Source: Anas platyrhynchos (taxonomy: Eukaryota > Chordata > Aves > Anseriformes > Anatidae). From it: a stretch of DNA of 64,000 bases. The stretch's first letter is position 1. The number at the start of each line of letters is the position of its first letter. The stretch covers positions 1,707,501 through 1,771,500 of the forward strand of contig NC_092612.1 of assembly GCF_047663525.1 (NCBI RefSeq), given 5' to 3'. The notes beneath the pieces were generated by a model. That model saw only the letters and a list, made by a program, of their open reading frames with translations. It was not told the origin of the DNA and did no database searches. Below are positions 5,401 to 63,787 of this stretch, one piece after another. The position numbers and the translations under genes are program-made.

Positions 5401-5900
5401 GAAGTGCCCCCACCCGAATTGTCCGCCCCCCCGAACTGTCCCCGTCTCCCCAATTTGCCCACAGCCCCCAAACTGTCTGCGCCCCCAAATTGTCCTCGAC
5501 CCCCGAACTGCCCCCATCACCCCAAAGCTCCCCAACCCCCCCAAACTGCCCCATCTCCCCAAATTTCCCAAATCCTCCCAAATTGCCCCCATCCTCCCAA
5601 ACTGCCCCATTTCCCCCAATCTGCGCCCCCCATCACCCCGAAACGGCCCCCACCCCCCCAAATTCTGCCCCAATCCCCCAAATAGCCCCCATGTCCCCCA
5701 AAGCTCCCACCCCCCCTAAACTGCCCCATATTCCCGAATTTCCCAAATCTCCCCCAAACTGCCCCAAGTCCCCCAAACTGCCCCCATCTCCCCCAAAGTT
5801 CCCTTCAGCCCCCAAACTGCCCCAAACCCCCCAAATTTCCCCACCCCCATTAATATGCCGCATCCCCAAAATGCCCCCCCCCACTGCCACACCCCCAAAC
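5395..5900. repeat. C-rich minisatellite
   Basis: Repeats of CCCCCAAACTGCCCC and CCCCCAAATTTCCC, roughly 15-18 bp per unit. The unit lacks stops, so several overlapping open frames appear on both strands; none is treated as a gene. Confidence 0.8.
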
Positions 5901-8900: not shown

Positions 8901-8984
8901 ATCTTCATCCTCGGGGTCCTCACGGCCCCCCGGGGGTCTCAGGCCCCCCCCCCCGGGGGTGTCAGGCCCCCCCCCGGGGGCTGC
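5901..8984. other. Low-complexity intergenic region between CRABP2 and ISG20L2
   Basis: Three parts can be seen: a G/T-rich minisatellite at about 6140-6590 (units like GTGAATTCGGGCTGTTTGGG), a less repetitive GC-rich stretch at 6600-7550, and AT-rich simple sequence at about 7560-7690 and 8490-8600. No conserved protein segment was recognised. Confidence 0.55.
8592..8597 (-). terminator. Candidate poly(A) signal for ISG20L2
   Basis: AATAAA on the minus strand about 390 bases beyond the last recognised ISG20L2 segment, in an AT-rich patch that also contains similar strings. Confidence 0.4.
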
Positions 8985-11900
8985 TGCTGCTCCACTCGGC
9001 CTCCACCAGCCTGTGAGGCTGGGTGGGTCCGGGCGTCCTCCACCGAGCAGTGGCCACTGCTCCCACCTGCAGAGAGGGGACACGGGGGTTGGTGGCCCCC
9101 CCCCCCAGGAGCATGGGAGGAGGGATTTGGGGTCCCCAGGTCAGGAATGGCGAGAAATGACAAAAGCTCTGGCCCCGGACCCAAAGAACCTGCCCCTAGA
9201 CCCTAAAGAAGCCCCAGGCTTTGACCCCCAGACCCCAAAGAAGCCCCCAAGCACCCCCCCCCAAAGAAGACAAAGAAACCCCCCAAGCTCCCCAACCGCC
9301 CCAAGAACCCCCCAGGACCCCCGAAGAAGCCCCCCAGGACCCCAAAAAGTCCCACCCAGGAACACCCAAAGAACCCTCCCAGAGCCCTTCTCAGCCCCCA
9401 AAGAACCCTGCAGAGCCCAGCCCCCAAAGAACTGCCCTCAGCCCCCAAAGAACCCCCAGAGACCCCCCAAAACCCAGCCCCCAAAAAAACAGCCCCAACA
9501 AACCCCTCAGAGCCCCCAAAGACCCCCTCAGCCCCCAAAGACCCCCCAAACCCCCCAGCCCCCAACCCCACCCAGGGTCCCCCAACCCCCAAAACCCTCA
9601 GAAGGGGCAGAAGGGGCCAGAGAGGGGCACAGAGAAGGCAGGAGGTGGAGACCTGGATGTCGCGCTGCAGCAGGGCCTTGGCCAGGCGCTTGAGGACAGC
9701 AGGATGGCCCCGGGGGCGCCGGCCGGCGCACGTTGAGGGCCATGCGAGGTGTCGCGGGTCGGCGCCGAGCGTGAGCGCAGCGCCCGCAGGTGGTTGTGCA
9801 GCGCGTGGCCCACCACCACCTTGCCCCGCAGCAGCTTCACGATATGTGGGGGGGGGATGAAAATGAAGAGGTTGTGAGGCAGCCCCACAACGCCTCAGTG
9901 TCATGGGTCGTGCTGAGCCCCCCAGAGCATGGCACAGTCCGAAAATGGCCCCAATCTGCCCCCCCCGGCAGTATGTCACCACGGCTGCCCCCTATAACCC
10001 CCCCCCCCCCAGCTGCCCTACAAGCACCACAAATCCCCCCCAAACCCCCCCAGCATCCCCCCAAACACCCCCAACTCCCCCAGCAGCCTCCTAACCCCCC
10101 TCCAAATCTCCCGAACCACCCCAAAATCCCCTCCAAACACCACAACCCCCCCTAAGACCCCCCCAGCAGCCCTCCAAGCCCCTCAAAGCCTCCCAGGAAC
10201 CGCCCAAACACCCCCCAAACCCCCCAACATCCCTTCTAACACCCCAAACTTCCCCTAAAGCCCCCCAGCATCCCCCAAACACCCCAACTCCCCCAGCAGT
10301 AGCTCTTTAACACCCCAAACTCCCCCTAACACGCCCAACATCCCCCTAAGCCCCCCAAAAACACCGCAACACCCACCCAGAATTCTTCCAAATCCCCCAA
10401 AGACCCCCAGCATCCTCCCAAAAACCTCCAACTCCCAGCATCCTTCTAAACCCCCATTACCCCTATCAAAACCCCCAAATCTCCCCCAAAGCCCCCCAAA
10501 CCTCCCCAAACCTCCGTCAAAACCCCCAAACCTCCCCCAGCATTCCCCCAAACGCCCCCAACTGCCCCAGCAGCCCCCTCCAACCCTCCCAGCATCCCTT
10601 CTACCACCCCAAACCTCCCCCAACCCCCCAAAACACCACCAACCCCCCACCCAAAACCCTCCAAACCCCCCTAGACCACCCCCAGCATCCCCCAAACACC
10701 CCCAACTCCCCCAGCAGCCCCCCAAACCTCCCCTGAGCCCCCCAAACCCCCACAACAGCCACACAAGTTCTTCCAAATCCCCCAAACTCCCCCAGCATCC
10801 TCCCGAACCTCCAACTCCCCCCAGCATCCTTCTAAACCCCCAGCCCCCCTCAAACCTCCCCCAAAATACCCCCAAACCTAATAGAAACCCCCGAACCTCC
10901 CCCAGCATTCCCCCGAACGCCCAGAACTCCCCACCAGCACCCCTCGAACCCCCCAACCTCCCCGAACCCCCAAAATCCCCCCCAACCCCCCCCAGCACCC
11001 CTCAAACCCCCCCAAACCCCCCCAAACACCACCAACCCCCCTCCACATCCCTCCAAACCCCCCAAACCTCCCCAGCATTCCCCCCAAACACCCCTAACTC
11101 CCCCCCAGCACCCCCTCAAACCCCCTAGAACCTTCCAGAAACACCCCAAACCTCTTCTCCCCAAACCCTGCAAAACCCCCCCAACCCCCCCCCAGCAGCT
11201 CACCTTCCTGCCAGGGCCTTATTGAAGGGACCAACATTGACCATAGTACCTCCTGATGCCGCTCCAGCGGGTCGATCCACCACGGGCTGCAGGGCCGCAC
11301 GTAGCGGTCGTCAAGGACGTCGCCCTCGTAGCTCACGATGCTGCAGCGGGCCGAGGAACTGAGCCCGGGCCCCGTGCCCACCCGTCTGCAGTCAATCGCC
11401 ACCAGCTTGGAAGAAGGGCCAGAGCCAAGGGAACGATTTCGAAGAGGGTCCCGAGGGCCTTAGAGAGCGCCCAAGAGATTTAGAGAGCGGCTGAGAGTCT
11501 TTAGAGGGAGGATCCAGAGGGCTTGAGGGCCCCTGAAGATTTGGGGAGGAAGTCCAGGAGTATTTAAAGAGACCCAGAGCCCTGGAGGGGGGCCCTGAGC
11601 TTAGGGAGGGGTCCAGAGTATTTGGAGGGGGGCCCAGAGCCCTTGAGGAGAGCCCCAGAGACCTAAGAGCCAGGAGGGCCTAGAGGGGCCCCCCAGCGCC
11701 TTTGGGGGGGTCCCCGGCATCCTCAGGCCCCCCCCCCAGAGCCTTTAAGCCCTTTCAGCCGGCCCCACTCTGCCTCGCCCCCTCCTGAGGCAGCCACCAC
11801 CATTTTGTGCCTCCCCCTCCCGCCGCCCCCGGCCCTCCCCGGCCGCCCCCCGCCGCCGGCCCCGTTTTTTCTTCTCTTCTTCGGCTTGCGGCGGGCGTTC

Positions 11901-12046: not shown

Positions 12047-12223
12047 GGCAGCCAGAAGCAGAAATGGCCAGAGCAAATGATACAGGGGAGAGAGTTGGCC
12101 TCACAGAGGCTGCGCATGCGCGGCCGGAAGCCGGAAGGGAGTGGAGAGAGGGAGCGCATCGCAGCTAGGCCGCAGAGCAAGCTATGGTACAGGAGGGGAG
12201 AGAGGGAGGTTGGGAGCGGCCGG

Positions 12224-12731
12224 TGACGTCAGGCAGGGCGGTGACGTCATCGTGCTGGTGAGAGAGGTTGGAGCGTGGCGTCACAGAGATAGGCTGGAGA
12301 GCTGCAGCTGGGCAACATCCAGCAGGGCTGTCTGATGTGGTGAGATCACACTGTGGTCTAGTGGCCCAGAGAGTGATGTCACAGCCCAGGAAGTGACGTC
12401 ACATTCCTGGTGTGACGTCATATCCCAGGAGGGTGACGTCACACCCAGAGTGACGTCACAGCCCAGAAAATAATGTCACATCCTGGTGTGACGTCATATC
12501 CCAGGAAGTGACGTCACGCCCCCAGAGGGTGACGTCACAGCCCAGGAAGTGACGTAGTATCCTGGTGTGACGTCACAGCCCAGGAGGTGACGTCACACCC
12601 CCCCCATGATGTCACCCCCCCAGGGTGACGTCAGACCCCAGCAGGCGATGTCGCAGCCAGGAAGTGACGTCACGCCCCCCGGCATGATGTCAGAGGCAGG
12701 AAGTGACGTCACAGCCCCGGAGATGACGTCA
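12224..12731. promoter_or_regulatory. Homotypic array of 15 cAMP-response elements
   Basis: The perfect palindrome TGACGTCA starts at 12224, 12242, 12394, 12413, 12434, 12451, 12489, 12509, 12530, 12568, 12588, 12626, 12665, 12704 and 12724. One-base variants (TGATGTCA at 12374, 12608 and 12685) lie between. Steps are mostly 17-21 or 38-39 bp, so the array is a ~20-bp minisatellite whose unit contains the full CREB/ATF site, with linkers such as CACAGCCCAGGAAG. It sits between the divergent ISG20L2 and METTL25B genes, where a shared promoter is expected. Binding and function are inferred. Confidence 0.85.
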
Positions 12732-12752
12732 CGCCCGCCCCCCGCCCTGCAG

Positions 12753-15500
12753 CGGGAGCAGCGCCGCGCGGCCGACATCGTGCGGCTCCTGGGCATGTAC
12801 CACCCGCTGCTGGACGCCTGCTTCATCGTGAGGAACGGCCCCGAACCCCACCCCGAAACTAGCCCCAAACCTGACCCCGACCCCAACCCTGACCCGACCC
12901 CGGCCCCAGCCCCAATCCCGATCCAGTCCCTAATTATGACCCTAATTAGGACCTCAACCCCAACCCTAACCTGACCCCAAACCTGACCCCGACCCCAACC
13001 TGACCCCGACCCAGACCCACCCCGACCCTGAACCTGACCCTAACCACGGCCCCAGCCCCAATCCCAATCCAGACCCTAATTATAACCCTAATTAGGACCT
13101 CAACCCCAACCCTTGCCTAACCCTACCTCCGATGCCAACCCTAACCCTAAGCTAACTCCAGCCCCAAAAATGACCCTAATTAGGACCCCAACCCTAACGC
13201 TAACCCTAACCCCGACCCTAAATAGGAACCCCAACCCCAGCTGTACCCTAGCCCTACTGATGACGCCAATCCCAACCCTAAATATGACCCTAATTAGGAC
13301 CCCAACCCTAAACCTATCTATGACTCTAACCCTAATTATGACCCTAATTAAGACCGCAACCCCAACCTAACACTACCTGTGACCCCAACCTTCACCCTAA
13401 CCCTAATTAGGACCCTAACTCCAACCCTTATTAGGACCCCAACCCCAACCATAACCTTAATTATGATCCCAATTAGGACCCCAAACCCAACCTCAACCCT
13501 GGTCTTCACCCTGATTCGAGCCCAACCCTAACTGTAACCCCAACCCCAACCCTGATTCGAGCCCTAATTAGGACCCCAACCCTAACTATGACCCTAACCC
13601 CGAGCCTAATTCAGCCCGACCCCCACCGCCCACCCCGACCCCAACCCCAATTAGGACCCCAACCCTAACCCCAACCCCGACCCTAATTCGAGCCCCAACC
13701 CTGACCCCAACCCTGATCTGACCCCAATTTTCAGACCCCAACCCTAATTCCGACCCTAATTAGGACCCCAACACCAACCCCAACCCTAACCCCAACCCCA
13801 ACCATGCCCGCAACCCTAATCATGACCCAAATTAGGACCCCAGCCCTAACCCTTATTCAGACCCCAACCGCAACCCTAATTATCACCCTAATGAGCTCCC
13901 AACCCCGACCCCATCCCAATTACCACCCTAATTAGGACCCCACCCCAATTACCCCGCTAATCCTCCCCCGTTTCCCCCAGGACTTACTCTCCCGGGGCTC
14001 TGCGCTCAGCTCCCGGCCTGGCAGGAGAGGCGCTGACGACGACCCCCCCGGCAGCTGGCGGCCGCCCCCTGCTGGGGGCTGGGGGGGCCGGGAGGGGGTC
14101 CCGGGGGGTCCCGGGCGGGGGCCTGGCCCCTGTCCCTCCTGGCCTTCGTCGCCGCCGCCCGCGCCCTGGCTTTCCCGGGGGTCTCCCGCAGGCCCCGCGC
14201 CCCTGCCGGCCCCGCCTGCACCCGCTGCTGCGCCGCCACGTCAAGGCCAAGAAGCAGCACGACGAGATCCGCGCCTCGGCAAGATGAGGCCCCCCACGGC
14301 ACCCCAAAACGCCCCATAACACCCGTAACGCCCTGTGGCCCATAACACCCCATCACCCCATATCACCCCATGTCCCCCATGTACCCCATAACACCCTGAT
14401 CACCACGTGCCCCCTCATCACCCCATGTCCCTCGTGTCCCCCATAACACCCTGACCACCATAACACCCAAGGTTCACCCCACAAAGCCCAGTGCCCCATG
14501 TCCTCCTGTGAGGCCCCGGTCACCCCATGCCCCCCCACGTCACCCCGTAACACCCTGTGTCACCCCCATGCCCCCCATGTCACCCCACGACACCCCGGGT
14601 CACCCCATGCCACCCCATGACACTCCGTGGCACCTGCCCCATGTCACCCCACGACACCCCATGTCACCCCATGACCCCCACGTCACCCCGTGTCCCCCCA
14701 ACCCCCAGATCCACGCCACCCACGTCATCTTGTCCCCACCCATGTCCCCCCGCCCATATCAACCCGTAACCCCCTTGTCACCCCCCAACCCCCCAATCTG
14801 CCACCAGTCCCGGTGCCGTGCCCCCTGTCCCCCAGGTGCTGGGCCACGAGCTGAGCGAGGCCACCGGCTGCGACCGCGTGGTGGACGTGGGCTCAGGACA
14901 GGTGCAAGAGCTGCGGGCTGGACGGGGGGGCACGGGAACACTTGTGCCCCCCAAACCCCACCGGCCACCTCCCCGTGTCCTTATGTCCCCCCCCCTTGTC
15001 CCCTGTCCCCCAGGGCCACCTCTCGCGCTTCCTGGCCTTCGGCCTCGGCCTCTACGTAGCCGCCGTGGAGGGCGACGGGCGCCTGGCGGCGCTGGCCGAG
15101 CGCTTCGACCGCGAGCTGCTGGAGCTGGCCAAAGCGGGCGCGGGGCGCGGGGGGGGGTCTCTCCCCACCCCCCCCCGGCACCCTAAAAGCGCCCCGAAAT
15201 CCCGGACCCCGGGCTCCCCCCCAAAAAAAAACCCCGCTCCCCTCTGGCCGCGGTGCCCCGCGGCACGTGGCCGGCCGCTTGGATCCGGGGCGCCCGGGGA
15301 GGAATTTTTGTTGCCCCCCACCCCCGGGCAGGGCCCCCCCGTTAGGAATCCGCTGCGGGAGCCCGGGGGGGGGCAGCGGGTGCTGCTGACGGGGCTGCAC
15401 GCCTGCGGGGACCTGAGCGTGGCCCTGCTGCGCCACTTCGCCCGCAGCCCCCACGTGGCCGCCGTCACCTCGGCCGCCTGCTGCTACATGAAGCTGTCCA
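12753..15500 (+). CDS. METTL25B: METTL25B / RRNAD1 methyltransferase-like protein (partial and frame-broken)
   Basis: This is a methyltransferase-fold protein of the METTL25 family. Recognised plus-strand pieces, in order: 12753-12827 (REQRRAADIVRLLGMYHPLL, ending at a GTGAGG donor); about 13982-14286 (WPLSLLAFVAAARALAFPG and RRHVKAKKQHDEIRAS, in different frames); 14836-14901 (TGCDRVVDVGSGQ, the cofactor-binding motif); from 15014 (GHLSRFLAFGLGLYVAAVEG); and about 15370-15495 (VLLTGLHACGDLSVALLRHF, then CCYMKLS). The human protein continues for roughly 170-190 residues after CCYMKLS. Nothing like that is found before MRPL24, where tandem repeats stand instead. The initiator exon is not identified and may lie in the CRE-rich region. 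The 3' end is either missing from the assembly or truly lost. Confidence 0.78.
12840..13975. repeat. Degenerate CCCTAA / CCTAATTAGG array
   Basis: About 1.1 kb of ACCCTAACCC-like repeats, interspersed with many copies of the palindrome CCTAATTAGG and with CCCCAACCC. It fills the METTL25B intron after the first recognised exon. It resembles interstitial telomeric sequence in its CCCTAA steps, but the units are heavily diverged. Confidence 0.8.
14290..14815. repeat. Short tandem repeats in METTL25B intron
   Basis: Units like CCATGTCACCCCACGACACC repeat loosely across about 0.5 kb. No coding sequence is seen until the acceptor before 14836. Confidence 0.7.
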
Positions 15501-16180
15501 CGAGGCCACAGCCCCAAAATCCGGTTCCCAGCCCCAAAATCCCGCTCCCCTGCCCAAAATCCGGTTCCCAGCCCCAAAATCCCGTTCCCAGCCCCAAAAT
15601 CCCGCTCCCCTGCCCCAAAATCTGGGTTCTCAGCCCCAAAATCCTGGTCCCCTGCCAATCGGGCAAAAAACAAAATATAGATACAAAAAATGCAGCGAAA
15701 CCTTAAATAAAGATGCAAAAAATGGCGAAAACCAGAATCTAGATGCAAAAAACATGGTGAAACCCTAAATCTAGATGCAAAAAAGCAGTGAAACCTTGAA
15801 TACAGATGCAAAAACTACAGCAAAACCCTAAATCTAGATGCAAAAAGAGGGTAAAAGGGGGGGGAAATGGGGGCTTGGCTCCCCCAGCGTGGCGGGGAGA
15901 CGCCCAAAAAGCTCCACAGCTGCAAAAAATACGTCGAAAACTAAGATATAGATGCAAAAATACGGCGAAACCCTAAATACAAATGCAAAAAATACAGCAA
16001 AAAACAAAAGATAAACACAAGAAATACGGAGAAATCCTAAATAAAGACGCAAAAAAACGGCAAAACCCTAAATCCAGATGCAAAAAATATGGCGAAACCC
16101 TAAATATAAACACAAAAATACGGCGAAACCCCGAATGTAGATGCAAAAAAATACGGTAAAACCCCAAATATGGATACAAA
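15500..16180. repeat. Two adjoining minisatellites where the METTL25B 3' end should be
   Basis: 15500-15655 is a CCCCAAAATCCCG repeat. 15660-16180 is an A-rich repeat of units like AAACCCTAAATCTAGATGCA spaced roughly 40 bp apart, interrupted near 15850-15925. It ends about 50 bp before the MRPL24 stop codon. Confidence 0.8.
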
Positions 16181-16232
16181 AAGTCCTTTACTTGGAGCTG
16201 CTGCCCCCGGGGGGCCCCCCCGTGCCCCCCGC

Positions 16233-18057
16233 TCAGTACCAGTAGGATTTCCTGGCCCGGCGCGTCTCTACGATGCCCGCGGCGTCCATCACCTCCTCCT
16301 CAAAGGTCTTGAGCGAGGGCAGGAAGGTTTTCTCCAGCACGTCCTCCACCGACGTGTCCTTGGGGCCATCTGCGGACAGAGACGATGCCGCTAAGCCCCC
16401 CCCAGCCCTAAATCCCCCCCCTGGAACCCCAAAACCCCCCCAATTCACCGATCCACTGCTCGGGGACGACCCCATCACGGCGCTGCCGCAGGGGCAGGGG
16501 GAGGATGCGGCCGGTGCGCAGCGACACCCGCACCCGCTCCCCCTCCTCCGTGTAACGCCACTGCACCTCCGTCGGCTTCCTGGGGAGGGAAAAAAGGACC
16601 AAAATCAGCAGGAATTGCCCTAAATCCACCCCCCCGGGGTGTTTTTGGGCCCCCCCCCGGGGTTTTTACCGGTCCTCAGGGTCCACCAAGGCGACCTGGC
16701 TGAGCAGCAGCGGGGCCTCGCTGGCGATGTAGGTGCTGCTGAATTTGGCCATCCTGTTGATGTAGCGGTAGTGCTGCGGGGTGAGGGGGGGGTTAAGGAC
16801 GTGCCGTGCCCCCCCCTTAACACCGTAACCCCCCCACCAACCCCTCCCCGCTCGCTCCTCACCGTGTTCAGCCCCTCCACCACGACCCAGTTGCGGGCTC
16901 GCACCACCTGGGTGACCAGCCCCTGGCGCCCCGCGTCCTTCCCAGCCAGCACCTGGACCTGTGGGGGGGGGGAAAGGGAACAAGGGGGGGGGCTCAATAG
17001 GGCTGGAAAAATGGGGGGGGGCCCTGGGGATCAACAAATAAGAGGGGGGGGATCAGTGGGGTTGAAGGAATGGAGGGGGTCTACAGGGATCAATAAATAG
17101 GGGGAGGTAAAAGGGGGGAGCCCTAAAAGGGGGGGTTCCAGGGGACCCTAAAAGGCGGGGGGGGCCCGGGGGAGCCCTAAAAGGGGTTGAGAATCTCCAG
17201 GTCCCATTAAACAGGGGGGGGCTTCCAGGGGGGTCATTAAGGGGGTTCCATGGGTCCCATCAAAGAGGGGGGTTCCCAAGGGGCCATTAAAGAGGGGGGG
17301 GGTCCCCGGAGGCCCTAAAACAGAAGGGGGGGGGCTCTCCAGGGGGGGGCATTAAAAGGGGGGGCTCCCCGGTACCCAATTAAAGGGGGGGGTCATTAAA
17401 GGAGAGGGTCCCCAGAGGGCCATTAAAGGGGGGGGGGGGCTTCCTGGAGGTCATTAAAGGATGGGGGGGAGTCCCCAGGTCCCAATTAAGGGGGAGGGGG
17501 GGGCCGGGTCCCACTTGGCAGGGGGGTCCCTGGATATCAATTAAAGGGGGGGAGTCTTCCTGGGGGGTCATTAAAGGGTGGGGAGGGTCCCCAGATCCCA
17601 ATTAAGAGGGAGGGGTCCCCAGGTCCCAATTGGGGGGGTTCATTAATGGGGTTGGAGTCCCCGGGTCCCTATTAAGGGGGAGGGGGGGGGCGGGTCCCAC
17701 TTAGGGGGGGGGACTCCCTGGATCTCAATTAAAGGGGGAGGGGGAGTCCCTATTAAGGGGGAGTGGCCTCCAGATCCCAATTAGGGGGGAAGGGTCCCCA
17801 GATCCCAATTGGGGGGCTCCCGGCTCCCAATTAGGGATGGGATTTGGGGGCTGGGGGTGTCCCCTCTCACTCACCGTGTCCCCGCGGAACACCTTCCACT
17901 CGTCCCTGCTCAGGGGCTCCACGAACACTTTGTTGCGGCGCTGCCCGGGGGGGTTCCTGCGCTGCTCGGGGGCGGTTCCGGGGCGCCACGTCCCGTGCCG
18001 GTACCCGGGGGGCAGCCGGGGCCGCGCCGCCAGGCCCAGCAGGGCCGAAACCCGCAT
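16233..18057 (-). CDS. MRPL24: Mitochondrial large-subunit ribosomal protein L24
   Basis: MRPL24 is a uL24-family protein of the mitochondrial ribosome large subunit. Five coding exons on the minus strand join in phase: 18057-17875, 16958-16863, 16773-16670, 16579-16449 and 16369-16233. They total 651 bases, or 216 aa plus stop, the same length as human MRPL24. The N-terminus [15 protein letters not shown] is basic and fits a mitochondrial import signal. A KOW motif lies near residues 62-80 ([17 protein letters not shown]), followed by [30 protein letters not shown] and the C-terminus SYWY. Intron 1 (916 bp) is filled by a G-rich minisatellite. A variant poly(A) signal AGTAAA lies at 16192-16187, about 40 bases past the stop. 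The promoter carries three ZNF143-type sites. Confidence 0.96.
16985..17870. repeat. G-rich minisatellite in MRPL24 intron 1
   Basis: Units like TCCCCAGGTCCCAATTAAGG and GGGTCATTAAAGGGGG fill the intron. On the MRPL24 sense strand it is C-rich. Confidence 0.8.
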
Positions 18058-18270
18058 GGCGGCTACGGGGGGGGGTGGGAACGAGCTGAGAAGGGGCCGG
18101 GGCCGAGCCCCCACACCGGGAACCGGGCCCCGGGACCCCCGGAGCCCCCCCGGGACCGGCCCGGACCCCCCCCAGACCCCCCCGGTTCCCCCCGGCCTCA
18201 CCTCAGCGCCCCTCCGCCTCCCGCTTCCGGAAGTCCCGGAAGTCCCGGAAGTGGCGATGCCGCGGGGCAC

Positions 18271-18444
18271 GCTGGGAGTTGTAGTCCGGCCGCGAGGCAC
18301 GCTGGGAGTTGTAGTCCCTCCCCCCCTCTCCCATTTCCTCCTCCTCCTCGTGGCCCGCCGCTGGCGCGGTGCATCACGGGAGCGCGCCGCCATTGACCCC
18401 TCCCTCTCGCTCCCTGCGCCGCGGGGCACGCTGGGAGTTGTAGT
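18271..18444 (-). promoter_or_regulatory. Three ZNF143/Staf-type motifs at the MRPL24 promoter
   Basis: Plus-strand GCTGGGAGTTGTAGT occurs at 18271-18285, 18301-18315 and 18430-18444; on the minus strand it reads ACTACAACTCCCAGC. This is the extended site bound by ZNF143/Staf at many vertebrate housekeeping promoters. All three lie within 390 bp upstream of the MRPL24 start, each preceded by GGCAC. Confidence 0.85.
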
Positions 18445-19577: not shown

Positions 19578-25266
<5,689 letters not shown>

Positions 25267-27329: not shown

Positions 27330-28095
27330 CAAGCAAAGGTTATGGGACTGGGACACAGACAGGTATGGGGCTGGAGCGGGGTGTAGGATTGGGGCCAGAG
27401 CAGGTTATGGGGCCAGGACACTAACGGGTATGAGGCAGGCACGGTGCATGGGACAGATTATGGGGTCAGAGCAGTGTGTGGGATCAGGACAGGCAGAGGT
27501 ATGGGACCTGGGCAGGTTACAGGGCCGGTGTAGTGTTTGGGACTGGGATGGGTTATGGGGTCGGAGCAGTGTATGGGACCAGGACAGGTTACAGAGCTGG
27601 TGCAGTGTATGGGACCAGGTTATGGGCTCACAGCAGTGTCGGGACTGGGTTATGGGATCAGAGTAGTATATGGGACTGGGGCACGTTATGGGATCACAGC
27701 AGTGTATGGGACTGGGACAGGTTACAGGGCTGGTGCAGTGTATGGGACTGGGGCACATTATGGGGTCAGATAGTGTATGGGGCCAGGGCAGGTTACAGGG
27801 CTGGTGCAGTGTATGGGACCAGGTTATGGGGTCGCAGCAGTGTATGGGACTGGGTTATGGGATCAGAGCAGTGTATGGGACCAGGACAGGTTATGGAGCT
27901 GGTGCAGTGCATGGGACCGGGTTATGGGGTCACAGCAGTGTACGGGACTGGATTATAGGATCAGAGCAGTGTATGGGACCAGGGCACGTTATGGGGTCGG
28001 AGCCGTGTATGGGACTGGGACATATTATGGGGTCAGAGCACTGTACGGGACTGGGACACGTTATGGGACCAGGACCTGCACAGGTACAGGAGCGG
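27330..28095. repeat. ~35-45 bp minisatellite upstream of PRCC
   Basis: Units such as GTGTATGGGACTGGGTTATG followed by GGGTCAGAGCA or ACAGGGCTGGTGCA repeat for about 0.75 kb. The array ends about 200 bp before the PRCC CpG-rich promoter. Tyr/Met/Gly-rich plus-strand frames here are artefacts. Confidence 0.85.
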
Positions 28096-28300: not shown

Positions 28301-28686
28301 GCTGGGAGTTGTAGTCCCCGCTCGAGCCGCCCTCACTCTGCTGCGCGGCCTGGGGGTATGGGGGCGGCGCGGGGGCTGCTGGGAGTTGTAGTCCGGAGGG
28401 GGGGGGGTGGGCACGAGGCACGGGGAGGGGAGAGCGGAGCCCGCTGGGCCTCGACGGGGAGGCCTCGAGGGGGAGGCCCCGAGGCCTTTTCTCCCCGCTC
28501 GGCCTCACCACGCGGCCTCCAGGCGGCCCCCGGCCTCCCCGCGCAGCCGCCATGTCAGCTCCTTCCCCCCCTCCCATCCCCACCTCCCGCCCTTACTCGC
28601 GGACTCCATCTCCCATGATGCCCCGCGGCGGGGCCCGCTGGGAAGCGGGCGGTGGGCGGCGCGCGGGGCCTGCTGGGAGTTGTAGT
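28301..28686 (+). promoter_or_regulatory. Three ZNF143/Staf-type motifs at the PRCC promoter
   Basis: GCTGGGAGTTGTAGT occurs at 28301-28315, 28378-28392 and 28672-28686, 250-640 bp upstream of the PRCC start codon, in CpG-rich DNA with GATGGCGGCGG nearby. These are the same sites, in the same orientation on the plus strand, as at MRPL24. Confidence 0.85.
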
Positions 28687-28936: not shown

Positions 28937-31900
28937 ATGTCCCTGGTGGCCTACGCCAGCAGCGAGGAGGACAGCGACGCGGAGGGGGCCGCGGGGGAGG
29001 AGGAGGAGGAGGAGGAGGAAGGGGATGAAGATGATGATGATGAGGGGGGGGGGGAGGAGGCCGCCGCCCTGCCTCGGCCTCGGGGCCTTTTCGCCGCTTT
29101 GCCCCCCCCCAAAACCTCCCGGCCCCCTCCTGGCGGCTTCCCCCCCCCCTCCTCCTCCTCCCCTTCCCCTCCTCCTCCTCCTCCGCCGCCTCCTCCTCTC
29201 CTCACGGCCCCCCCGGGGCCCCTCAAGGCCTTTGGGACCCCCTCGGCCTCTTCATCTGGGGGGCCCGAGGAGCAGCGACCCAGGCCCGGGGGGCGGCTGC
29301 TGCTGCTGCCCCCCCCCAGGAACACCCCCCACGGGGTTGGGGGGGATCTGAGCCTCCCCAGGGCCAAGAAGAGGACGGAGCCGGTGAGGATCGTGGTGCC
29401 CGAGCTGCAGGAGGGAGATGTGAGTATGGAGCCGGCCCCCCCCCCATTGTGGTGGTGGGGGTGGCAGGGAGCCCTGGGCCAGCTGCCGGCCCTGATCCTA
29501 AAGCTCTTTGGGGAGTTAAACTGGAGCAAAAACCTTATTTACTGCAGCAAAAACCTTATTTACTGGAGCAAAAACCTTATTTACAACCACAATGCCCCCA
29601 AACCCTGATCATTTGCACCCCGCTTTATCCCCCACGCTTTGCAGCCGCGGGGCCGGGCTTGGGGTGTCCCCAAAATCCGCTCCAGGTGTCCTCCAGACCT
29701 CGAGGGAATCGTTTCTCTCTCCCCTTTTCCTTCTTTTTTTTAGGGTTGCCCCGTGTTTTATGGGGTTCCGCAGCACCCACACCCAGTGGAGCCCCCATTT
29801 CCCTTTTCCCCTTTTATTTTTCTGTCTGTGTCCCCGCTGAGCGCCACAACCACGCTGGGACCTGGCAGCGACGCGGCTCTTCCCATCCCACGGCCCACGT
29901 GGGACTTTGTCCGTCTGCCCTGCTGGGGTTGTGGATTTAGGGTCGGCGTTTTGGGGACACGGGGGAGCTGCCCCCATCGCTCGGGGTGGCACCTCTGGCT
30001 TTACAGGGGCAAGAAGGGGTGAGAGGGACTCCCTCCCCCTCTTTTCCCCACCCCTTAGCTCTGACAGAAGCGCTGCAGGTCCTCGTGGTGGCGAAGAGAA
30101 ACACCTTCAAAACCCCAAATTCCCCAAATCCCGCTGCCTTCCTCGCCCCATCCTCCTCCTCCTGCTTTTTAGGTTGCCCCTTCGGGGCGGTTCCTGGGCT
30201 GGCTCCTGTCTCCGAATGGCAGCCACGAGGTTTGCCTGCGGCTCCCGACTCTTTTCTTTACGCGTGGCCTCCTTCCTGGGCCTGTTCTATAATTCAGGCA
30301 GCGAGCTGGCAGAGCTCCTCGGTTCCTGTAATCCCTGCAAAGTGCTCTGCCGAGCCAGAAAATGATCGAGGCTGCTCAGCACTAAAAAAAAACACCTTGA
30401 AAATTCAGGAATTTGGTTTACAAATCCCCTTTTTGCTCCCCAATTTGGATAACCGAGCTCAGGCTGGAGCTCAGCCTTTAATTCTTGCTCCGAGGAGGCT
30501 GCACGAGGTGATGCTGCAAATCTTTTTTCTTTTTTTGCTAAAAAAAAAAAAAAAAAGAAAAGCTTTGCAAAGCTTTTTTCTTTTTTTTCCCCCCCCTTGT
30601 TTTATTTTTTGCCCCTGCCCTGACCACAGCAGACGCAGCTGCCTCTAAATAACACCAGGTCTCGTGGCTGTGTGTGCTGTGGGCAGCACATTTACCTTTT
30701 TTCTCTCTTTTTCTGCCTCCGATGCCTCAGCAGGAGCGTGGTGGCGCCTGACCACAGCCCCGCTGTTGCTTTTTAGCCACGTTCCTCACAGCTCCTGAGC
30801 CCAGAGCCGTGCTGCTGCGACTCTCTGCTCTTCAAAGCAAAAACTGACAAGCTGTTAATGGCTGAAAGTTGTTTTTTTTGACATCTCAGGTTGTGCTAAG
30901 CTCTGTTTCTCTTTCTCAGTCAGATTCGGAGGAAGATGAACCAGCAAGGAAGAAAAATACCCCCCAGGTGAGTGCCGGGGACGCTGGGTTCAGTGAATTT
31001 CTCAGGAAATAAGCACTCGGCTGAGCATCTCGGGCTTCCTCCTTTATAAATTAGTCACTCTGATTAGTGCAGAGCAGTCTGGGGATAAAATTCCTGGGGT
31101 GGCAAGGCCGTTTTGGGGGAAATTTCCTAAATGCAGGTGTCAGATGAAGGATGCCTTCACCTGGGGAGCGGGCAGATAGCGGCAAGCCCTGCTTTTCCTT
31201 TCAAGCCCTGCTGCTGGAAGTTGTGCTGAGCCGTTAACGTCGTTAGGAGCGGGGGGATAATTAGCAGGGAGTCGTTTGAGTGGAACGGTGTCGCTCACCT
31301 CTGATTTCTGTCATCCCTTCGCCCCGTGTGGGGCTCAGCAGGGGCGCGGCGAGGGCTCCGGCTTGTCCGCTCTGCTTCCTCAGCCCAAGAACTTGACGGT
31401 GAAAGAGCCCAACCGGTTACTTGTGCCCCACGCCGTCTCGAGGAAAGCACCCGACAGCGCCAGCGAGGCAAAACCCGCCAAGACCCCCTCCTCCTCCTCC
31501 TCCTCCTCCTCCAAACCCAAACCTCCGTCCAAGCCGGCGGTGCCCACCACTCCCTCCCCCTCTGCCATCAAAGCCGCCGCCAAGAGCGCTGCCCTGCAGG
31601 TAACCAAGCAGATCACGCAGGAGGAGGACGACAGCGACGACGAGCTCGAGCCAGAGAACTACTTCTCCTTGTCTGACAGGAGCCAGCCCGGCCTCGTGGC
31701 CTCCGAGCCCTACTCGTACCCCGGCGCGGCGCTGGCGGAGGAGCCGCCGCCCGGGACGGAGCCCGAGCCTCAATTCCAGGACGCTGCTGCCAACGCCCCG
31801 CTGGAATTCAAGACGGGCGCGGGTTCCAGCGGTGCTCAGCACGGCTGGCTGCCCAAAGCTGGGGAGGAGTACAGCAGCCAGCCCTACGGCCACTTCCCTG

Positions 31901-34378
31901 CTTATGGGGACGCTGGCGTGCCGGGGGCTTATTACCAGGTGGGTTAATTGCCCCTCGGGGGGAGCTGGATGGGGCTTTTGTGGGGTTTTTGGGGTTTTTG
32001 GGGTTCTCCCCCAGCTGAGCTCGCAGGGATGAGGAGCGGGGATCCGCAGCACTTAGAGCAGGGCTCCTCTGGCAGCGCAGCCACGGATGCTCTTTGCTGG
32101 ATAAATGTTTAATGGGCGTGCTGGCGTTAAAATGCCCCCGGCAGAGCTGCCCCTGCTGCTGGCTGGGTGCAGAACCCGGGCCGATGGCTGCAGCCAGCTG
32201 GTTTCGAGCAATTCAGCAGGGCCTTTGCTCTGACAAAATAAAAAAAAAAACAGGAATGAGAAGCAACGACCGCCTCTGCCACGGGAGGAGGCACACGTGT
32301 AACGTGCTGCCCTCCCCAGAGCATGCACAAAATCCTCGCTGAGAAGCCAGCAGCTCATCGGGGAGGGGGAACGAGGCTTGGGGCTGCCTCTCAGAGCCCC
32401 CCGTGGGTGCTGTGCTCCGGGATCAGTCTCGTTTTTGCTGTGGTGACCGACTGCTTTCCCTCTGCCGACAGGATTATTACAGCAGCGGCTACTACCAGGA
32501 GGCAGAAGCAGCCCAGGGCGCGCCGCAGGAGATGAGCACCGACTCCTCCTTCCTCGACGACGAAGCGGTTGGCATTTTGCTCTCTATCCCCCCGAGGAGT
32601 TTGTGTTTAAGCTCTGTTAGGATTGTAGGACCTGAAGGATCCCGGTCCTGAGCTGTGCTCCGTGCCTGGCCGGACCCCATCACTGCTCCGTGGGGTTTAG
32701 GGGTGTGTTGTGGGCACTCTGAGCCCCTCCAGCACTGCGTGGGGCTGCTGCAGGTGGATTTCCTTGCTTTCTAAGCTGGTGACTTTGTTATTTCCACCTA
32801 GCCCAGTGCTCTTCTCACTGGGGATGTGTAGGGCAGCCGAGGTGTGAGGAGCTGCGTTCAGGTACCTTCGTGGTTCCTCTAGCGCAGCCGTGGACTCCCC
32901 ACAGCCTTCAAACCCTCAAGAACTCGAGCTCAGAAACCCATTTAAGAGAAAAAAAAACACAAACAGCACGCCACCTCTCATTGTTGATCTAATCTAGAAG
33001 CTGCCAGCCCCGGTAGCAGAAGCAGTGAGTGCTGCAGAAGACAGCCCGTCTGCTGCTCGCTTCCTCTGAGGGGCCTCTGCGCTTTTGAGGTGGATTTGAG
33101 CGAGGCAGGGTCTGTCTGGCAGCAGCCTGAGGTGCTCCTCTTGCACTAAAACAAGGGGCTTGAGAGGCTGAGGGGCTTCTCCTGAGCACGAGTCAAAGCC
33201 AGGGTCAACGTTTTCCATTCTGCATGGAAAAATGGGGTTATAACCTTGAGGTTGAATAGTTCAGGAGAGTTCTGCTTTGTTACAGATCAGAACATCTTAG
33301 AGAAAAAATCCCTCCTTGGGAAAATGCGTGGTGATGGGACCTGCCCCATGCTCAGGGAGCAGAGGGTTGGGCTCCAGCTACCTCCGCTTGCTTTGGGTTG
33401 TTTTTGGTGGCGGTGACGTGTGTTTAACTTCAATTTTTTCTGTTCTTCTTTCAGTTCAAACGCCTGCAAGGGAAGCGAAATCGGGGGAGAGAAGAGATCA
33501 ACTTTGTGGATATCAAGGGTGACGACCAGCTGAGTGGAGCCCAGCAGTGGTTGACCAAATCCTTAACAGAGGAGAAAACCATGAAATCATTCAGCAAGGT
33601 GCGGGAAGAGAGGCAGAAGTGCTGCCTGGGCTTTTGGGGATCTTTTTTGGTTCCTGTTTTGGCCACAGCCGGAGCTGTATTGGGCTCTGTGCGGTCAGCA
33701 GAGTGGGGAGGGATGGGGGAGCCTCGTCTTGTGAGCTGTGTAAATAATTCAGGGAACTGCAGGGCTTCCCAAAGCCCTGAATGTGAAACCAAAACCTGAA
33801 GTGCCTCCGTGCAGGCTCTCGTCTCGTGTCGGTGCCTCCCCAGGCTCAGGTTCTTTGCTCTTGCTTTCTAGAAAAAAGGAGACCAGCCCACGGGGCAGCA
33901 GAGGAGGAAACACCAGATCACCTACCTGATCCACCAGGTGAGCGGCCTGGGAACCGACGGGGACAGAATTAGGGGGCTGGGGACGTGCTGCGGGTCCGAG
34001 CTGAGCGCCTGCCTGCTTTTTTTTTTGCTTTGCTTCACCTTCCCCCTTCCCCTCCCTGCCTGGGCGCATGCGCGGCCGCGTTCGGTTACGAGACTCCTTC
34101 CTTCCTGCCTTCACTCCGCACGGCAGCCCAGAGCCTCCCTCAAAAGCAGCTGCATTTCAGCACGGCCGGGCTGGATTCGTGCTGCTCAGGATGATTTTTG
34201 CTGGCTCCTGGAAGCAGCAGGGGCAGCGCCGCTGAGTCAGCGCGCGGCGCCTCGCTGCTAACCCGCTGCTAACCCTGCTCCCTTTCTGCAGGCCAAGGAG
34301 AGAGAACTGGAACTGAAAAACACGTGGTCCGAAAACAAGCTCAGCCGACGGCAGACTCAAGCCAAGTACGGATTTTAA
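28937..34378 (+). CDS. PRCC: Proline-rich mitotic checkpoint control factor PRCC
   Basis: PRCC is a nuclear proline-rich protein linked to splicing factors and the mitotic checkpoint, and is the partner of TFE3 in renal carcinoma fusions. Seven coding exons join in phase: 28937-29419, 30920-30967, 31339-31938, 32472-32567, 33455-33598, 33872-33937 and 34292-34378. They give 507 aa (human 491). The start MSLVAYASSEEDSD is the family N-terminus, followed by acidic and proline-rich low-complexity regions. The conserved parts are LSALLPQPKNLTVKEPNRLL, SPSAIKAAAKSAALQVTKQI, DDQLSGAQQW, SLTEEKTMKSFSK and the C-terminus RRQTQAKYGF. Exon 3 encodes a serine run from a TCC repeat. The exon 4 donor is GTTGGC, a weak site but at the expected codon. 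Confidence 0.96.
29522..29588. repeat. Three copies of a 22-bp unit in PRCC intron 1
   Basis: GAGCAAAAACCTTATTTACT and two near-identical copies lie head to tail shortly after exon 1. Confidence 0.85.

Positions 34379-56813: not shown

Positions 56814-63787
<6,974 letters not shown>

Follow-up and report, generated by a model that had tools for sequence, protein, structure and literature searches.

Why does a short interval of the duck genome hold so many copies of the palindrome TGACGTCA (CRE), and were these copies built and kept by selection as a switch, or multiplied by mutation? The window considered here is a stretch of 64,000 bases of Anas platyrhynchos (NC_092612.1, positions 1,707,501 to 1,771,500), and an exact count finds 15 perfect copies in it, every one within 12224-12731. 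The chance expectation for TGACGTCA is 0.18 per window, and 0/100 shuffles got to 15. The original prediction, that 15 perfect CRE palindromes are packed into about 510 bases as a minisatellite of about 20 bp, with variant copies among them, is thus borne out by direct count, and the repeat has a TRF period of 20. The features of the cluster and its surroundings are collected in Table 1.

Table 1. Features of the CRE cluster, its flanks, and the neighbouring genes (positions in the window).
Feature	Position	Strand	Basis or remark
Likely ISG20L2 start codon	12044..12046	-	match of the N-terminal block to human ISG20L2, E 6e-4
NRF1 palindrome GCGCATGCGC	12112..12121	.	one of two in window, other at 34064
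Two adjacent CCGGAAG ETS cores	12124..12137 (12124, 12131)	+
Pair of perfect CREs standing alone outside the array, 18 bp apart	12224..12249 (sites 12224, 12242)	.	exact count
One-mismatch CRE TGGCGTCA, between the stand-alone pair and the array	12276..12283	+
CRE minisatellite of 19 units (mean 19.4 bp; bounds are the first and last cores), 13 of them a perfect TGACGTCA	12374..12731	.	TRF and unit alignment
Higher-order part, 3 blocks of 4 units (77, 79, 77 bp)	12374..12606	.
ETS site overlapping a CRE, AGGAAGTGACGTCA	12388..12401	+
Further copies of AGGAAGTGACG	12503, 12544 (CRE half broken), 12659, 12698	+
Three 39-bp blocks (TGATGTCA-type unit and TGACGTCA unit), with cores largely kept between strongly diverged spacers	12607..12723	.
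Likely METTL25B first coding exon (MTSRPPPALQREQRRAADIVRLLGMYHPLLDACFI), GT donor at 12828	12723..12827	+	alignment to the human N-terminus
MRPL24	start 18057	-	tblastn
HDGF	start 25266	-	PWWP domain
PRCC (presumed)	start 28937	+	recognised by its N-terminus
Tyrosine kinase exon	near 54.3 kb

If a minisatellite is taken as head-to-tail units of roughly 10-100 bp, the array is one: TRF reports it at 12364-12736 (period 20), 12370-12736 (period 38), and 12365-12602 (79-bp period, 3.0 copies). Twelve units are arranged as the 77-, 79-, and 77-bp blocks, six follow as the three 39-bp blocks, and one final unit closes the array, the steps between neighbouring units being 17-21 bp. Thirteen cores are perfect, three read TGATGTCA, and TAATGTCA, TGACGTAG, and CGATGTCG occur once each; 10/152 core letters are off the consensus, five of them by C-to-T change in the CpG, whose G is never altered. 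The 15 perfect sites, the stand-alone pair included, are separated by steps of 18, 152, 19, 21, 17, 38, 20, 21, 38, 20, 38, 39, 39, and 20 bp. The densest clusters of CpG-containing 8-mers (entropy >=1.8 bits) consist of TGACGTCA and the 8-mers overlapping it, and outside the array such 8-mers reach at most 6 per 600 bp. The array is also a homotypic transcription-factor-site cluster, in the sense of putative sites of one factor occurring above chance in one promoter, with the promoter position judged from start codons.

The two divergent genes that had been predicted to flank the array could be named as ISG20L2 on the minus strand and METTL25B (RRNAD1) on the plus strand. One ISG20L2 exon matches the ISG20L2 structure PDB 7yw5 (E 4.8e-10) and so does a second exon (E 1.5e-6); three ISG20L2 pieces were scanned against Pfam and had no match. 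METTL25B, to the right of the array, is recognised by a Methyltransf_32 domain and by tblastn blocks matching the human protein. Its first exon is not among these blocks, and was placed by an alignment to the human N-terminus that scores 45, a value reached by 0/2000 shuffles. The likely METTL25B ATG sits in the final array unit, which makes transcription of at least the array's 3' end probable. The ATG-to-ATG distance is 677 bp; bidirectional promoters are defined by transcription starts <1 kb apart, and here only start codons are placed, in two genes that both carry lesions. Between the ISG20L2 ATG and the CREs lie the NRF1 site and the two ETS cores, and judged by these motifs the flank of the array resembles housekeeping promoters. 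Further ATGs, at 12606, 12609, 12648, 12684, and 12687, are in frame with and open to that at 12723; those at 12606-12723 stem from CpG-to-TpG-type copies in the 39-bp blocks, which themselves encode a 13-residue repeat open into the METTL25B frame. Farther along the window, the gene at 28937 is presumably PRCC by its N-terminus (Pfam gave no match for the PRCC piece), and the gene order is one that we take to agree with a block of human chromosome 1. Together with the base composition, this order suggests that the window belongs to one of the small, GC-rich chromosomes of a bird.

Some array units carry an ETS site that overlaps the CRE. The register GGAAGTGACG is found in 5/19 units, at 12389, 12504, 12545, 12660, and 12699. 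The passages drawn on from PMC3464117 describe it as the register for joint binding of GABPA and CREB, and state that 60% of human occurrences of the canonical 11-mer CGGAAGTGACG, which holds two CpGs, lie within housekeeping DNase sites. All five duck units read AGGAAGTGACG and the first CpG is absent from each, so they are not classed as canonical ETS-CRE elements. In A549 cells, CAGGAAGT is bound by GABPA in vivo, more weakly than the canonical site (8.8-fold versus 96-fold), according to the section of PMC4555227 used here. The overlap register is thus common to the duck units and the composite element of these papers, but there the sites are single ones, at least in the parts cited (PMC3464117; PMC4555227), whereas here the register recurs within an array, as AGGAAGTGACG without the first CpG.

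We put a probability of about 0.5 on the reading that the locus is a homotypic cluster of candidate CREB/ATF sites, produced by repeated tandem duplication in the divergent promoter of ISG20L2 and METTL25B. It looks more like a control site multiplied by mutation than a new kind of switch, and from its motifs the cluster is probably able to bind CREB/ATF. It is proposed that a segment of about 20 bp with a CRE, which in some copies forms an overlapping pair with an ETS site, was duplicated into a four-unit block, that this block then went to three copies, and that a 39-bp dimer was tripled beside the METTL25B start codon. We infer this order of events, as well as germline activity of the promoter and neutrality of the growth. 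Intact TGACGTCA copies would be bindable by CREB/ATF/CREM dimers if unmethylated, and a few of the CREs might be bound jointly with an ETS factor. The driver would be open, factor-bound promoter DNA in the germline, prone to short tandem duplications within a region where minisatellites already abound; such a driver is more likely mutational than adaptive.

Germline tandem duplication is favoured as the mechanism by analogy only. In human, insertions of 5-20 bp at spermatogonial binding sites often arise as tandem duplications and so raise the number of motif copies, the NRF1 family has one of the highest enrichments (7.0-fold), and the authors suggest that site clusters may have a neutral origin, as set out in the sections of that paper drawn on here (PMC8559717). 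The duck array resembles these clusters in that copies of a factor site lie in a promoter beside an NRF1 site, and its unit of 17-21 bp stands at the top of the 5-20 bp insertion class. However, the human evidence described in PMC8559717 comes from population data and concerns single duplications, whereas the duck array has 19 units with higher-order blocks. It also speaks against the germline view that the study is of human and of spermatogonia and leaves the CREB/ATF family unnamed (CREM, CREB, and ATF have 0 occurrences in the main text of PMC8559717), and that the mouse CREM peak reported in the cited part of PMC10454534 is in round spermatids, later than spermatogonia.

Equally, the array could be an ordinary local minisatellite, one of many in a GC-rich region, that chanced to begin on a promoter CRE and grew with no binding-driven process and to no function; we hold this to be rather unlikely, and rank it first among the alternatives. 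It is supported by the abundance of repeats, since the window holds 242 TRF rows (many overlapping) and repeats of period >=9 cover 20% of it and 29% of its first 30 kb. It is also supported by folding, as palindromic units may promote slippage via hairpins. The array folds far more stably than shuffles, both as RNA (z -15.6) and as single-strand DNA (z -12.1), and the native energy of -192.9 kcal/mol compares with means of -177.3 when cores are kept and spacers shuffled and of -132.6 when spacers are kept and cores shuffled. With cores kept and spacers shuffled there is a residual z of -2.5, and 0/60 shuffles are as low as native. In this folding model the structure is largely a consequence of the palindromic cores; the hairpins may help slippage, and a selected RNA role is unnecessary.

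Two observations weigh against a minisatellite of that plain kind. The first is that three types of promoter motif are clustered at promoters within one window. The scan used 20 patterns chosen by the analyst, over the 64-kb window, and its motif names are our own assignments, as is the reading of TGGGARTTGTAGT as ZNF143/THAP11-type. This 13-mer occurs six times, at 18273, 18303, and 18432 upstream of MRPL24 and at 28303, 28380, and 28674 upstream of PRCC; two of the three copies on the MRPL24 side fall inside a 30-bp duplicate. CCGGAAGT is present at 18227-18252 alone in the window, as a 9-bp tandem of three copies. The same interval, about 170-195 bp upstream of the MRPL24 start codon, is a perfect tandem of CCGGAAGTC (2.9 copies) with three ETS cores. 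The HDGF promoter region has three SP1-type sites within 700 bp, a motif common in GC-rich DNA. Three of the four mapped promoter regions hold multiplied CRE, ETS, or ZNF143-type sites, on a motif list of the analyst's choice.

The second observation is CpG retention. The CpG of the CRE is kept in 14/19 units, compared with 69/184 unit-CpGs in other local arrays (Fisher p 0.003, with copies within an array not being independent). The comparison set comprises 19 rows taken from 16 arrays, three of which contribute two CpG columns, and the array 65-270 (1/4). Rows overlapping the same loci were left out (459-805, both at 5420-5510, 20001-20084, 27972-28075, 60408-60468, 60643-60792, and 61128-61341, as well as the 29-bp and three 59-bp rows at 61083). 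The same was done with the 38- and 39-bp rows of the CRE array itself, which include columns with 0.20 and 0.50 of CpG kept. Any one of three causes could suffice to explain the high retention: recent growth, low germline methylation, or selection.

If selection is the cause, the array would have been built and kept as a strong cAMP- or stress-responsive, methylation-sensitive enhancer of ISG20L2 and/or METTL25B. We consider this unlikely, although the CpG retention speaks for it, as does the variation between copies. When both cores of the 39-bp blocks are counted, 2/16 core columns are variable compared with 18/23 spacer columns (p 7e-5), and for the exact core alone the comparison is 0/8 with 20/31 (p 0.001). 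This low variation would also fit selection for CREs, which counts against the duplication reading. Pooling both block types gives 7/48 core and 29/66 spacer columns (p 0.001); however, the 77-79-bp blocks alone give 5/32 and 11/43, which is not significant (p 0.40). Among 50 TRF rows, some of them overlapping, the CRE array has the highest contrast of the best eight columns with the rest (0.23), but the next array reaches 0.20. Because other local arrays come so near to this contrast, core conservation is weak proof of selection, and selection on the CRE core is weakly supported.

The arrangement of sites on the helix also argues against the switch. The original prediction counted double steps of 38-39 bp as roughly four turns and expected the sites to tend to face the same way. 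Neither holds: such steps are 3.6-3.7 turns, and with a turn of 10.5 bp the 15 sites give a vector length of 0.21 (p about 0.50) and the 13 array sites one of 0.18 (p about 0.65). At the pitches tried from 10.0 to 11.0 bp there was no alignment of the CREs (all p >0.2). A pitch of 9.7 bp does align the 13 array sites strongly (vector length 0.88), and the unit lengths themselves also align sites well; the former follows by construction because 9.7 bp is half the unit length, and it is not a usual pitch of B-DNA. Helical phasing of the CREs was rejected on the vector lengths at ordinary pitches.

The condition of both putative target genes weakens the idea of a maintained switch further. The ISG20L2 block 11408-11292 on the minus strand shifts frame within about 20 bases, resuming at 11272, and other blocks of the ISG20L2 region (8974-11408, minus strand) lie in shifted frames, as read by eye. 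The residues aligned to AIDCE and HND of 7yw5 are AIDCR and HNH, and we take the altered residues to be catalytic acids of this exonuclease family. By these blocks ISG20L2 appears to be either a pseudogene or affected by assembly errors. In METTL25B (region 13980-15500, plus strand), an internal stop interrupts exon 2, which also switches frame, and the window gave no convincing match to a C-terminal probe of 184 residues (best E 0.18). Directly after the last recognised METTL25B block, the interval 15509-16182 holds tandem arrays (unit length 20-95 bp) that are A-rich from 15673 on, at the place where the missing exons would be expected; the last coding block of MRPL24 ends at 16236, beyond the METTL25B region. 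MRPL24 gives four clean tblastn blocks to the last residue, one reading through an intron, the HDGF blocks are clean, and both genes look intact in the blocks compared. Either ISG20L2 and METTL25B would both be damaged in this lineage, or the assembly would be faulty just here, and in both cases a maintained switch loses ground.

A further proposal, also doubtful, is that binding begets duplication: CREs occupied in the male germline would break, repair would duplicate them, and more copies would draw more binding and in turn more duplication, until the promoter site had become a minisatellite. Earlier stages of the process on the same chromosome would then be seen in the ETS and ZNF143-type clusters of MRPL24 and PRCC.

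Very unlikely is a role in RNA or protein, in which the array acts in the 5' UTR or N-terminus of METTL25B and the transcript is extremely structured. The CpG-to-TpG copies do give in-frame ATGs, the 39-bp (13-codon) blocks continue into METTL25B, and the RNA fold and its residual z with spacers shuffled point the same way; but 77 and 79 are not multiples of three, so the 77-79-bp part breaks the frame, most of the structure comes from the palindromes, and METTL25B itself looks incomplete here. RNA structure as a selected trait was rejected, as the cores account for most of the stability. Least probable of all is an assembly artefact in the array or its copy number, to which the frame changes and the missing C-terminal part of the flanking genes lend some weight: the copies are diverged and hierarchical and thus not a run of identical assembly copies, the window has no non-ACGT letters, and the nearby MRPL24 and HDGF blocks read cleanly. 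An inserted viral element as the source was rejected, the viral CRE runs being compared by motif count only (24 loci with three CREs in a row among viral contigs, the densest, the IMG/VR contig L006, with nine TGACGTCA in about 520 bp).

The array can be set beside two further known systems. The cytomegalovirus major immediate-early enhancer presumably has fewer CREB/ATF repeats than the duck array has copies, and the glycoprotein hormone alpha promoter has two CRE copies. The 19-bp repeats of the former, nearly equal in length to the duck unit, bind CREB/ATF, but the enhancer is viral and the repeats stand beside 18- and 21-bp repeats for other factors, as described in the part of PMC6116278 consulted. 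The likeness would be in the way of working, and common origin is not claimed. The latter is a natural case of tandem CREs in a cellular promoter, bound there by CREB and regulatory by test, whereas the duck array consists of 15 perfect predicted sites (PMC11049346, in the section cited). A search of titles and abstract openings in the open-licence literature, which omits most subscription papers, found no CRE minisatellite in a cellular promoter. If the array was built by selection, a cell genome would here offer one of the rare natural promoters with many CRE copies. If it grew through germline binding, it would represent, at a natural extreme, a mutational process that in human has so far been seen as rare short insertions; the late stages of that process could then be looked for on chromosomes of this kind. 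Either way, copy number among birds and individuals offers a test that can be counted directly.
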